Of a stretch of DNA of 37,481 nucleotides, positions 21,660-33,679 are shown piece by piece. The translations under genes were made by a program, and so were the position numbers. The DNA is from a virus. Each line of letters begins with the position of its first letter. Positions within the stretch are counted from its first letter, which is position 1. The DNA lies in the IMG/VR virus record IMGVR_UViG_3300042549_001579, positions 1 to 37,481 of that record. One strand, written 5' to 3'. The notes below the pieces were generated by a model. It was not told the origin of the DNA. It saw only the letters and a program-made list of their open reading frames with translations, and searched no databases.

Positions 21660-21689
21660 ATTGTACAGTTAGTCTGTACAGTCTAGCAA
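21660..21689 (-). promoter_or_regulatory. Candidate late promoter with operator-like inverted repeat
   Basis: On the minus strand TTGCTA (21689-21684) and TACAAT (21665-21660) are spaced by 18 bases, placing a start about 35 bases before the terminase ATG. Between and over them lies the perfect inverted repeat TGTACAG-ttagt-CTGTACA (21662-21680), a good size for a dimeric regulator. The element heads the whole late operon, so it is where a phage sigma factor or WhiB protein would be expected to act. Confidence 0.4.
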
Positions 21690-21707
21690 GGCTCCAAAAA
21701 GCCTTGC
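21686..21707 (-). repeat. Perfect hairpin beside the late promoter
   Basis: GCAAGGCT and AGCCTTGC form an eight-base-pair stem around a six-base loop. It overlaps the candidate -35 box of the late promoter. On the minus strand the loop reads TTTTGG and no T-run follows, so it does not look like a terminator. It may be an operator or an insulator. Confidence 0.45.
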
Positions 21708-21883
21708 AGTACATAGTAAAATAAAAACAATCTCTATATATACTTAATCCGTTCAAACAGGTAAAACGAACACTTTTTATCCTGTGAGTTTTATCAGATA
21801 TGTAAAAGCCCTGCTCAGAGCAGTATTGTCACTATACCCTCAGAAATATATTAGCAGAGATACTACTATGTAGTGGCTGACAG

Positions 21884-21931
21884 ATTAATAAACCTAGGGT
21901 CTGATAGAACTAGACCCTGTAGTTTATTAAT
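21884..21931. repeat. Long imperfect palindrome
   Basis: ATTAATAAAC (21884-21893) pairs perfectly with GTTTATTAAT (21922-21931). Inside them AGGGTCT (21896-21902) pairs with AGACCCT (21912-21918) around a nine-base loop. This gives 17 base pairs with one small internal loop. AT-rich outer and GC-rich inner arms with no T-run suggest a binding site or cruciform rather than a terminator. Confidence 0.6.
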
Positions 21932-22073
21932 TGCTCCCGCATATCTGTTAGGTTAGAGACTACTGGCTGGCGTGTATGACTGTAGACTGTCTGCCTACCT
22001 ATCCTAGGGGGTATGTATCTATCCTATATAAATAAATATACTCTAGCATCTGGCTGTATGCAATTGCTCCAAT

Positions 22074-22368
22074 GGCTGGCCTTACCAGCCCGCCACATAC
22101 TCGCGTGCGACTGCGAGCAGTTCGTCCACCTGTCTCAGTTCGCATGCTGTTCATGAATCTAGGTCTGCCTGCTATCTCCTCGGGGAGATGCTGGCGAATG
22201 GAGCACCAGAAGGCCAACACATCATGCTGTTGTACGAGCGGGTGTTGAGTCCTCGACTTGCCATCGCGTAGAGGTATGCTCACCCTCCGCGTTAAATCGT
22301 TCCTGCCTTTGTCGGCAGATGTCGCTACTCTGTTTCAGCCCGTAATAGGGCCATGTCGCAACACGACA
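22074..22368. repeat. Array of short GC-rich hairpins
   Basis: Seven separate stems occur in 300 bases: 22074-22090 (GGCTGG/CCAGCC), 22100-22117 (CTCGC/GCGAG), 22174-22189 (ATCTCC-TCGG-GGAGAT), 22265-22291 (CGCG and GAGG against CCTC and CGCG), 22303-22318 (CTGCC/GGCAG), 22338-22351 (GCCC/GGGC) and 22354-22368 (TGTCG/CGACA). An eighth, TGCTC-ATCC-GAGCA, lies at 22538-22551 after the nested element. Loops are mostly four to nine bases. The arms differ from one stem to the next, so this is structural repetition and not a repeat family. Confidence 0.5.
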
Positions 22369-22421
22369 ACCTGAACGCTCTCTCTATGTGTTGTATGCAC
22401 GGAAGATGCGCCACGCAATCT

Positions 22422-22526
22422 GGCAGAGAACCTGCTAGGGAGTCAACCCCACCACGCCCAAAAGCGGGGCGCGTTGGGGTCGGCGCATGCGCCGCCCAAG
22501 GGTGACTCTCCTGCAGAACCTCTGCC
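22422..22526. ncRNA. Nested multi-helix inverted repeat (structured RNA or DNA site)
   Basis: Two 24-base arms (22422-22445 and 22503-22526) pair at 18 of 24 positions as three helices: GGCAGAG with CTCTGCC, CTGC with GCAG, and GAGTCA with TGACTC. Between them, without a single spacer base, lie a hairpin at 22446-22480 (ACCCCA/TGGGGT outside, CGCCC/GGGCG inside), the palindrome CGGCGCATGCGCCG (22481-22494) and CCCAAGGG (22495-22502). It looks like a multi-branched junction with stacked arms. It lies 55 bases before the first early gene. I cannot tell transcribed RNA from a DNA element such as an origin or packaging site. Confidence 0.5.
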
Positions 22527-22580
22527 TGATGCTGTTCTGCTCATCCGAGCAATACAACTACAAAGAGAAAGCAGGTTATC

Positions 22581-22973
22581 ATGTCACAACATGTCATATC
22601 CTATTACGGCGCTGAAATAGCGAGCATCGAAATCTGCACCGCCAAGAGCGGGAACAATTACGCGAAGGGTACCTTAATCCTACGCGATGAGAGTGGCAAG
22701 TTCGAAGCCTCACACCGTTTCCGCTCATACAACGCAGTAGATGTGTTGACTGTTCTGGAACTCCAGTACTTCGCCAAGCAATCTCCCACCGCGGAGACAT
22801 CAGGTAGCGACCTGCAATTTGATGAAGCAGCAAGCGAAAACACTGAGACACGCGAACGAACAGTTGCCAAGGCAACTGCCCGCCCACGAGTTAATGTGTC
22901 TGGCTGGTTTAAGACCAGCAAGTTTGGAGATAATTGGAATACAGCGTTAATGCTAGAGTCCGTATCTATTTAA
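22581..22973 (+). CDS. First early gene, possible OB-fold protein
   Basis: A 130-residue protein starting MSQHVISYYGAEIASIEI. Alternating beta strands (YAKGTLILRDESGKF), a helix (VDVLTVLELQYFAKQ), an acidic and Arg-rich linker and a final strand pair (RPRVNVSGWFKTSKFG, WNTALMLESVSI) are compatible with a small beta-barrel that binds single-stranded nucleic acid, but no family signature is conclusive. It is the first gene of the rightward unit and is followed by its own strong terminator, so it forms a single-gene transcript. Confidence 0.6.
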   Translation: MSQHVISYYGAEIASIEICTAKSGNNYAKGTLILRDESGKFEASHRFRSYNAVDVLTVLELQYFAKQSPTAETSGSDLQFDEAASENTETRERTVAKATARPRVNVSGWFKTSKFGDNWNTALMLESVSI

Positions 22974-22986
22974 AGATAGATTAAAA

Positions 22987-23011
22987 CCCCCTAGAAATAG
23001 GGGGTTTTTTT
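22987..23011 (+). terminator. Intrinsic terminator
   Basis: CCCCCTA-GAAA-TAGGGGG is a perfect seven-base-pair stem with a GAAA tetraloop, followed by seven T. AAAA just before the stem gives it weaker potential on the opposite strand. It lies 13 bases after the stop of the first early gene and separates it from the rest of the early block. Confidence 0.93.
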
Positions 23012-23056
23012 CTGTCTACCGTAAGTGTTTAATTGAAGTTAGAAAGGAAGGAAGTT

Positions 23057-23075
23057 TCCCGTAATCTCTACGGGA
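23057..23075 (+). repeat. Leader hairpin before the mini-gene cluster
   Basis: TCCCGTA-atctc-TACGGGA is a perfect seven-base-pair stem ending 22 bases before the ATG at 23097 and just upstream of its Shine-Dalgarno AGAGGAG. There is no T-run. It may protect the new 5' end of this transcript or mark a processing site. Confidence 0.45.
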
Positions 23076-23096
23076 TTCTACAAGAGGAGATATAAA

Positions 23097-23270
23097 ATGA
23101 ATGATTGTATTGTTTGTTTATATGCTGTTGATATGTTAACTGCATATGAGCGTGGTTTAACTGATAAAGAATGTGTAGAACATAAGTGGCATGAACATAC
23201 TATAAAAGATGGACATGTAATTCTTGCATGTTCTGAGTGTGGAGTGGATGAAGAAAGGATGTGGAAATGA
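23097..23270 (+). CDS. 57-residue zinc-ribbon-like protein
   Basis: Begins MNDCIVCLYAVDML and ends with ACSECGVDEERMWK. The two CxxC pairs (Cys4/Cys7 and Cys45/Cys48) are placed as in a zinc ribbon, with His residues between them. AGAGGAG lies seven bases upstream. The stop overlaps the next ATG (ATGA). It is a candidate small regulator or adaptor; the function is unknown. Confidence 0.7.
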   Translation: MNDCIVCLYAVDMLTAYERGLTDKECVEHKWHEHTIKDGHVILACSECGVDEERMWK

Positions 23271-31754: not shown

Positions 31755-32466
31755 CTTACAGATTCCGTACCAAGACAACCGAATAGTAGACGCAACACTT
31801 CAATTCATCAGGGATTATAAACCAGATGAACTCTGGTGTGTAGGAGATGAACTAGATGCACCCGAACCTAGTCGTTGGAACAAAGGTATGGCGGGTGAAT
31901 ATGCAGAAACATTACAAGACAGTATAGATTTAACGCACGAAACAATGGCTAGTTACCGTAAAGCATTAGGTAACAAGCCATTTGTCATTCAACGCAGCAA
32001 TCATACTGACCGCATTGATACATACATACGCAAGTATGCACCAGCATTTCAATCACTTGATTCATTAAAGATTGAAACACTACTAGGCTACGACAAGTTG
32101 GGTATCACATACCTTCATAAAATGAAGGAACTATTACCTGGTTGGGTAATGGCACATGGAGATGAAGGCGCACTTAACCGTGCACCTGGTGCTACTGCAC
32201 TTAACTTAGCAAGACGACTAGGCAAATCAGTAGTGTGTGGACACACACATAGGGTTGGCTTACAACATGAGACATCAGGAATGTATGGAAAAACCAGTAC
32301 TTTATACGGGTTAGAAGTCGGTCACATGATGGATATGTCACAGGCTCACTACCTAACATCAGGTTCTGCCAACTGGCAGCACGGCATAGGCATACTTGTA
32401 GAGACTAACCGCAAAGTTACTCCATTTGCAGTGCCTATCGTCAATGGTGAGGTACACATTCCCTAA
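31717..32466 (+). CDS. Calcineurin-like metallophosphoesterase
   Basis: A 249-residue protein from the ATG at 31717 (GGAAGG eight bases upstream); an earlier GTG frame start has no such site. The metallophosphatase motifs are present in order: VLSDLQIPY (residues 10-18), GDELD (43-47), SNHTDR (94-99), VMAHGDEG and GHTHR. The first motif is DxQ instead of the usual DxH, which removes a classic metal ligand. The substrate (cyclic nucleotide, nucleic acid end or other phosphate) cannot be told. TAATG couples it to the sigma-factor gene. Confidence 0.8.
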   Translation: MAQRSRRIVVLSDLQIPYQDNRIVDATLQFIRDYKPDELWCVGDELDAPEPSRWNKGMAGEYAETLQDSIDLTHETMASYRKALGNKPFVIQRSNHTDRIDTYIRKYAPAFQSLDSLKIETLLGYDKLGITYLHKMKELLPGWVMAHGDEGALNRAPGATALNLARRLGKSVVCGHTHRVGLQHETSGMYGKTSTLYGLEVGHMMDMSQAHYLTSGSANWQHGIGILVETNRKVTPFAVPIVNGEVHIP

Positions 32467-33089
32467 TGTCTTACATTGAAAACTATAATTATTTAGTACA
32501 GCAACTCGCTAGTGAGTATGCTAAACGCTATACTATGGTAGAGCGTGATGACATAGCACAGGAGATGTGGGTATGGTTTGTCGGTCATCCCCATAAGTAC
32601 AAAGAATGGTCTGCACTAGAGCAGAAAGATTGCGACAAAGTAATAGCAAAGTCATTACGCAATGCATCTCTTAAGTTTTGTGAAAGAGAAAAAGCAAAGC
32701 ACAGTGGCTATCAATCATCTGATTTATATTATTATGATGCGTCAGTAATAGAAGCGTTCTTACCTTCTATCATTAGCAACTCATATGAAATGCCAAGCAA
32801 GATACAAGACCTAAACGCCAACTCTGGTAGCAGTGTTCTTAGTGAAGGTAACAACTGGCTAACGTTACGCTCAGATATAGAGAAGGCTTACAACAGACTT
32901 AGCGAAGCCAAGCAGAATGTACTACGGCTACGCTTCAGCGTTGAGCAGCCTGACTGGACAGAGTTAAGCAAGGATATGGATAGCACACCAGATGGTGCGC
33001 GTATGAAAGTACAACGAGCAGTCAACTCTATTATCAAAGTACTAGGTGGCTGGAAGCCATATAGAGATGATGATTCAACCAGTGTTTGA
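32466..33089 (+). CDS. Phage-encoded sigma-70-like factor
   Basis: A 207-residue protein. Residues 10-75 resemble sigma region 2 (TMVERDDIAQEMWVWFV, then KSLRNASLKFCEREK), and residues 143-195 form region 4 with a helix-turn-helix (LSEAKQNVLRLRFS, DWTELSKDMDSTPDGARMKVQRA). The two are joined by a flexible Ser/Asn linker, the two-domain layout of ECF-type factors. It would direct host RNA polymerase to phage promoters, most plausibly the late operon. No anti-sigma gene is seen. The neighbours are zinc ribbons and WhiB, so the block is a transcription-control module. Confidence 0.75.
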   Translation: MSYIENYNYLVQQLASEYAKRYTMVERDDIAQEMWVWFVGHPHKYKEWSALEQKDCDKVIAKSLRNASLKFCEREKAKHSGYQSSDLYYYDASVIEAFLPSIISNSYEMPSKIQDLNANSGSSVLSEGNNWLTLRSDIEKAYNRLSEAKQNVLRLRFSVEQPDWTELSKDMDSTPDGARMKVQRAVNSIIKVLGGWKPYRDDDSTSV

Positions 33090-33418: not shown

Positions 33419-33679
33419 ATGTATAAACCCAGTGACACACCTAATTGTGAGTCAACAGATACTGACTTGTTCTTTGTACCAGAAGGACAAGGCACATACC
33501 CTGAATTAAAAGCACTTAAGAAGATTTGCGGGTCATGTGTAGTACAAAAAGAATGTCTTGACTATGCAATGAAGTACAGTGTGATGGGTTACTGGGGTAA
33601 TACTACTGAGAATCAACGCCACAAAATGCGGCGACAACTTAATATCGAACCAATACCAATGTATCTAACATACAAGTAG
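33419..33679 (+). CDS. whiB: WhiB-family transcription factor
   Basis: An 86-residue protein with the four WhiB cysteines (Cys10, Cys37, Cys40, Cys46: CGSCVVQKEC) that hold a [4Fe-4S] cluster, the turn GYWGN (canonical G-V/I-W-G-G), and a basic segment RHKMRR for DNA contact. AGGAGG lies five bases upstream. WhiB proteins bind region 4 of the primary sigma factor and are exclusive to Actinobacteria and their phages, which identifies the host group. It may block host genes or reprogramme the polymerase. Confidence 0.92.
   Translation: MYKPSDTPNCESTDTDLFFVPEGQGTYPELKALKKICGSCVVQKECLDYAMKYSVMGYWGNTTENQRHKMRRQLNIEPIPMYLTYK

Follow-up and report, generated by a model that had tools for sequence, protein, structure and literature searches.

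A phage DNA segment of about 1 kb complements itself over the full length of a gene for an SSB-like protein, from before the ribosome-binding site to the terminator. The left arm of this structure, here called the rod, is a noncoding anti-gene that is held complementary to the gene by compensatory evolution. The structure and the selection on it are firmly supported, unlike the function of the rod. The reading that we favor, with a probability of roughly 0.4, is that the rod is a self-closing SSB messenger under autogenous control. The DNA analyzed, referred to as the window, is the 37,481-nt IMG/VR virus record IMGVR_UViG_3300042549_001579, in which a first-pass annotation had described a nested palindrome.

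Extent of the rod and its encoded protein

When positions 21900 to 23100 were compared with their own reverse complement, a single match covered the whole span, with 68% identity over 1,081 columns (E = 4e-98). Positions 21998 to 23001 form a single imperfect inverted repeat of ~1,004 nt (Table 1), and BLAST of the region against related contigs also found an opposite-orientation match of the gene upstream of the gene itself. RNAfold of positions 21960 to 23040 gave −507 kcal/mol, with 357 of the 406 pairs lying in a rod centered on the reported palindrome. One strand can thereby fold into the rod, with helices of no more than 12 bp and bulges between them. Complementarity of the left arm takes in the ribosome-binding site and coding sequence as well as the 5′ half of the terminator. 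The rod score was 188 in the window, where nothing else came close to this value, compared to 35 to 50 at best for related loci and phages without a rod, and no second rod of comparable size was seen in the ~258 kb of loci scanned.

Table 1. Features of the rod locus, with positions in the window
Feature	Positions	Strand	Basis
Left arm of the rod, noncoding anti-gene (limits are those of the self-alignment; apex side approximate)	21998-22470	+	Self-alignment, MFE fold, stricter scoring of ends
Apex of the rod (palindrome of the first-pass annotation)	22422-22526	.	Fold and shuffles; compensatory pairs in 12 homologues
Right arm of the rod, SSB-like gene inside, end within the terminator hairpin	22498-23001	+	Self-alignment, MFE fold, scoring of ends
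Probable Shine-Dalgarno (SD) region, GAAAGCAGG	22567-22575	+	Sequence; predicted to be paired with the left arm
First early gene, 130 aa, predicted OB-fold SSB-like protein	22581-22973	+	AlphaFold2, Foldseek, dN/dS
Intrinsic terminator directly after the gene	22983-23011	+	Equivalent hairpin 3′ of the stop codon in relatives

The palindrome is real, and on direct reading its arms (22422-22445 and 22503-22526) match at 18 of 24 positions. As had been claimed, the apex segment is GC-richer than the flanking DNA. The 105-nt segment folded at −60.1 kcal/mol on the plus strand (z = −5.0; 1 of 200 shuffles as good) and at −66.4 kcal/mol on the minus strand (z = −6.0; 0 of 200). A hairpin and a near-perfect palindrome at 22478-22497 are present among the nested inner palindromes that had been described. 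However, these are variable and other sequence takes their place in close relatives, for example, L025; therefore, the rod and not the palindromes is the conserved feature. Similarly, the apex does precede the first early gene, but the whole unit is ten times longer and contains the coding sequence. A small RNA consisting of the apex only was rejected because complementarity extends ~500 nt further on either side. The suggestion of a new phage RNA stands insofar as this is a selected structure without a named family, but it is tied to a coding gene and is not a separate small RNA. Nothing specific was found in favor of the other suggestions, a replication origin or a packaging site, and both were set aside: the rod accompanies the SSB-like gene and, in most lineages, stops at its terminator, and sister phages in which this gene is missing have no rod, although they share the portal and terminase. 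The first-pass annotation knew of no named family of this shape, and indeed no Rfam family exceeded its gathering threshold in the window. With cmscan, weak matches in the rod region occurred at the terminator hairpin only, and a known RNA family was ruled out as the identity of the rod.

The gene product is probably an OB-fold protein. An AlphaFold2 model built from 23 sequences showed an OB fold with a disordered loop (mean pLDDT of 79, above 90 in the folded part), and the top Foldseek matches in the PDB were nearly all SSBs (E of about 2e-4 to 1e-3; TM of 0.5 to 0.69). Pfam and PDB sequence searches gave no match. In PHROGs, just one member of the family matched, weakly, an unnamed family, and no curated SSB family was hit. 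Because sequence libraries do not recognize the protein, "SSB-like" here denotes a likeness of predicted fold only.

Protein searches of IMG/VR recovered relatives down to ~28% identity to the window protein; none were found in INPHARED phages or GTDB genome contigs, and no DNA similarity was found in phages. The rod was present in every locus with enough flanking DNA, that is, in the window and 51 other distinct contigs from IMG/VR (54 records, since 2 of these contigs occur in duplicate). The lowest rod score was 83, compared to a maximum of 39.5 for composition-matched controls. An assembly artifact was rejected because these 51 contigs, many of them diverged, also carry the rod. The order terL (on the opposite strand), rod, and SSB-like gene was constant wherever a contig reached terL.

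WhiB-like proteins are typical of actinophages, and one is encoded at 33419-33679 (Pfam E = 1e-12). The portal and TerL proteins are 86% and 63% identical, respectively, to those of the isolated Planktophila phages LanE43AprE7 and LanE43AprF5 (OX376640 and OX376641; PMC10202952), from both of which the SSB-like gene and the rod are absent. In L022 and L023, which are isolated Planktophila phages, ~0.8 to 1 kb with few ORFs and with neither SSB-like gene nor rod lies before terL. The resemblance of portal and TerL to those of Planktophila phages, together with the WhiB-like gene, suggests freshwater actinobacteria, Nanopelagicales or their relatives, as hosts.

Compensatory change and helix architecture

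Left arms matched their own coding sequence with scores of 80 to 154, compared to mostly 14 to 35 for the genes of distant lineages. They matched the genes of close relatives too, and hardly those of distant homologues. Synonymous-codon shuffling of the gene abolished the match (z = 8.4 to 10.2). A divergent duplicated gene was ruled out as the identity of the left arm, which contains no intact homologous frame.

RNAalifold, given 12 homologues and no hint, predicted the rod with 248 pairs, 67 of which had changed on both sides. Among the long-range pairs, 38 of 168 were doubly changed, compared to 2 to 8 when the partners were slid by 1 to 3 columns and to a mean of 18.7 (maximum, 27) in shuffles; these counts are not independent events, because the 12 homologues share ancestry. 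Where the 3′ side of a doubly changed pair lay in the coding sequence, it fell at a third codon position in 18 of 34 cases. The first-pass annotation had called the palindrome a selected structure and had proposed looking for compensatory changes among homologous phages; these are abundant, so the claim passed its own test.

For lineages whose coding sequences are 65 to 83% identical, about half of the coding positions that differ were paired in both members. This is the value predicted from the overall paired fraction, and compensation is therefore essentially complete. Two of the closest pairs, the window with L003 and L033 with L044, had a deficit of such sites, as would be expected if compensation lags behind change. 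The gene is under ordinary purifying selection (dN/dS of about 0.2 to 0.25). An attempt to gauge synonymous constraint from the dS of the SSB gene relative to that of terL and portal was confounded by mosaicism.

The rod is also an architecture beyond mere complementarity, one that re-copying one arm from the other would not produce. First, perfect blocks were limited to 12 bp, with only 1 of 1,986 being longer. Second, in L046, L057, L060, and L075, helices of mostly 8 to 12 bp alternate with one-sided bulges of 3 to 7 nt on the gene arm, and the spacing of these bulges was far more even than expected by chance (CV of 0.40 to 0.51 versus 0.94 to 0.96; P < 0.0005). Those of L063 and L068 lie mainly on the left arm (P of about 0.001); in the window's own lineage they are smaller and the regularity of their spacing was not significant. 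Third, bulge positions were inherited at 72 to 83% identity while the paired bases changed, and were lost at about 65%. Finally, large bulges in both arms tend to AARC on the plus strand, a tendency that on the gene arm may partly stem from codons, and noncoding bulges of at least 4 nt were 45% A and 10% T on that strand. Bulges showed no consistent codon phase.

These features bear on the possibility that structural selection is lacking and that template switching or gene conversion (quasipalindrome correction) maintains the likeness between the arms of an old inverted duplication. Such copying would yield strict Watson-Crick matching and apparent compensation without any function, and the left arm is noncoding, as it would allow. 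However, copying predicts long perfect tracts, which are practically missing above 12 bp, and it does not account for evenly spaced bulges of strand-specific composition or for bulge positions that persist as the paired bases change. Furthermore, the rod is kept in every lineage down to the lowest protein identity found. We therefore regard this explanation as already disfavored and hardly probable.

Translation start, rod ends, and strand preference

The left arm lowered the predicted accessibility of the SD region and start codon (SD+AUG) in 14 of 15 loci. For the window, the mean P(unpaired) of SD+AUG was 0.20 with the left arm and 0.40 without it; across loci, values for SD+AUG paired with the left arm ranged from 0.01 to 0.43. 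The apex lies ~75 to 130 nt before the ATG. A terminator-like hairpin was found 3′ of the stop codon in 24 of 24 loci, its stem sequence differing among them. In most of these loci, the right end of the rod, determined by stricter scoring because loose local alignment extends into random sequence, fell no earlier than the stop codon and no later than ~20 nt past the T-tract; it reached further in L048, L050, and L057. The terminator T-run is short in L048 and L050, where the rod seems to run on for ~110 nt, to the start of the next gene.

A self-closing messenger would work as follows. Rightward transcription would begin upstream of the left arm and end at the terminator, and the transcript would fold while being made, the resulting rod concealing both the ribosome-binding site and the coding sequence. 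The bulges would prevent long perfect duplexes, which would be open to cleavage by RNase III. The messenger would thus be closed, and its opening would depend on how much of the encoded single-strand-binding protein is present. In one version, the protein would bind the A-rich bulges of 4 to 6 nt, which lie about one helical turn apart in several lineages, and the bulge-bound protein would repress or time its own synthesis according to the free ssDNA competing for it. Such control would resemble T4 gp32 autoregulation, with a gene-length structure. Every step beyond the fold is one that we infer.

Several observations favor this messenger: the self-complementarity of the whole unit, the presence of the rod in the window and all 51 contigs, the matching of left arms to their own genes, the doubly changed pairs, and the loss of the match on synonymous-codon shuffling. 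The 12-bp ceiling on helices, the even bulge spacing in several lineages, the coincidence, in most lineages, of the right end with the terminator of the gene, the closed SD+AUG, the A-rich noncoding bulges on the plus strand, and a product with a predicted SSB fold are also in line with it. On the other side, the rod continues past the terminator in L048 and L050, the RNA binding of the protein is presumed, and the strand preference described below would be unexpected if only plus-strand RNA were selected. No promoter was recognized upstream of the left arm either, which leaves the inclusion of this arm in the messenger a presumption.

The promoter scan found nothing better than shuffles. A TGAC box (often TTGAC) paired with GTCA is found at 22498-22512 and recurs in most lineages at the apex, which otherwise differs in sequence. 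No conserved −10 element was found after this box; the phage sigma factor could differ. The product of 32466-33089 appeared sigma-factor-like by eye, with only a weak match to Mycobacteriophage_Gp53, and phage promoters may therefore deviate from the sigma-70 consensus.

Other elements lie on the terL side of the rod. The element TTAATCCGTTCAAACAGGTAAAACGAAC at 21744-21771, located upstream of terL, is conserved in every lineage of the alignment. Its GTTC/GAAC arms change jointly to GTCC/GGAC in L041 and L043, and it is possibly a regulatory hairpin or operator. At 21884-21931, a perfect 10-bp inverted repeat surrounds a GGGTC/GACCC hairpin, and similar hairpins with changed stems occur at the same place in several relatives. 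In the terL leader (21660-21720), TGTACAG repeats are followed by a GCAAGGC/GCCTTGC hairpin, the stem of which differs between relatives (AGAACTC/GAGTTCT in L003), as expected of a kept structure.

Mismatches within the rod were unequally distributed. Read on the plus strand, there were 190 A-C versus 71 G-U and 185 C-U versus 52 A-G mismatches. The same bias was found in the coding part (120 A-C versus 56 G-U; 133 C-U versus 38 A-G) and outside it (70 versus 15 and 52 versus 14, respectively). These mismatch types favor the minus strand, G-U being rare on the plus strand. The minus strand also folded more stably than the plus strand in nearly all loci and, with DNA parameters, in 6 of 6.

Folded minus-strand ssDNA, exposed, for example, during replication, is the main rival to the self-closing messenger as the functional form, although we consider it unlikely. 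Here the SSB gene would become pseudo-double-stranded, either as an ssDNA-activated gene or as an ssDNA sensor melted by SSB itself. Strict Watson-Crick pairing with few G-U pairs fits this form, as do the mismatch types, since on the minus strand G-T and G-A are about equal (190 and 185), like DNA mismatches rather than RNA wobble. Stability with DNA parameters, the SSB fold of the encoded protein, and the precedent of Frpo at ssb (PMC9849209) agree with it. Yet this dsDNA phage has no known ssDNA phase, the bulges that are A-rich on the plus strand would be T-rich on the minus strand, no conserved −10 element was found near the apex, and a DNA structure would have no reason to end at an RNA terminator save that of covering the gene.

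The mismatch spectrum and folding energy would suit a minus-strand RNA as well, antisense to the gene and perhaps a late-operon leader, as the late genes lie on that strand. We find this very unlikely: such an RNA would start where the plus-strand terminator lies, its bulges would be U-rich, and the excess of G-U over G-A was far below expectation. A plus-strand rod might alternatively protect or store the messenger, by conferring nuclease resistance or by serving host factors as a decoy or scaffold, with no control from the encoded protein. The very stable fold, helices too short for RNase III, and the end at the terminator are consistent with such a role. However, it leaves unexplained why only the SSB-like gene has a rod, a hidden ribosome-binding site would cost expression, and the conflict with the favored minus strand remains; it therefore seems improbable.

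The large bulges, A-rich on the plus strand, look like those of a folded RNA, at odds with the mismatch spectrum. Avoidance of G at unpaired plus-strand positions would reconcile the two results, as would folded minus-strand ssDNA. Because the bulge and mismatch evidence disagree, we take structure and selection as shown, whereas the molecule that folds may be RNA or DNA.

Known systems and the meaning of the rod

The T4 gp32 mRNA has a small pseudoknot 67 nt upstream and an unstructured A+U-rich stretch over the ribosome-binding site (PMC3014915). As with T4 gene 32, a phage single-strand-binding protein is encoded behind a structure located before the start codon, and expression is plausibly tied to free ssDNA. 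Unlike in T4, the rod pairs the whole coding sequence with a dedicated noncoding arm, SD+AUG is paired with that arm instead of lying in an unstructured A+U-rich region, and autoregulation is a proposed feature. Frpo, an ssDNA promoter of conjugative plasmids, is a noncoding stem-loop upstream of genes and is present at F plasmid ssb (PMC9849209). It shares with the rod a foldable single strand sited at an ssb gene, but the rod is ~1 kb long and has the gene inside, and a −35/−10 pair and ssDNA entry would be hypothetical for it.

Obelisks are RNA replicons whose ORF pairs mostly with itself (PMC13096302). The rod is like these and other viroid-like (hepatitis delta virus [HDV]-like) rods in being ~1 kb, unbranched, and ~70% paired, with one ORF and a sequence that drifts while the rod stays (PMC13096302). 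Obelisks and viroid-like replicons are circular RNAs that have no DNA copy, and part of the group carries a self-cleaving ribozyme. Unlike Obelisks, the rod occupies a fixed locus in phage DNA, beside terL wherever the contig reaches terL; its ORF pairs with a separate noncoding arm, and the predicted fold of the protein is an OB fold. No ribozyme family was found by cmscan of the rod region up to E = 1. GOLLD and ROOL are large phage-associated noncoding RNAs, and the rod resembles them as a large conserved structured element in phage DNA. It differs from them in having no Rfam match and in being an unbranched rod that contains a coding sequence. To our knowledge, no cellular or DNA-virus gene has its whole coding sequence paired to a dedicated noncoding mirror arm. 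A described family with a gene-length noncoding mirror arm was not found in the open-access literature, an absence that is not proof.

We tentatively propose that such a "rod gene" may represent a new class of genetic element, in which a gene and its anti-gene are selected as a gene-length, bulge-spaced rod that has the encoded OB-fold protein for a ligand. Whether made of RNA or of folded ssDNA, the element would act as a homeostat for SSB and exposed ssDNA. The sequence bears two codes at once, one for protein and one for gene-length pairing. Many changes in the gene are answered hundreds of nucleotides away, and nature has thereby performed a large number of compensatory experiments. Rod-like architectures are known from viroids, HDV, and Obelisks, and one occurs here in ordinary phage DNA. 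The matching of a single-strand-binding protein to exposed ssDNA becomes testable with it.
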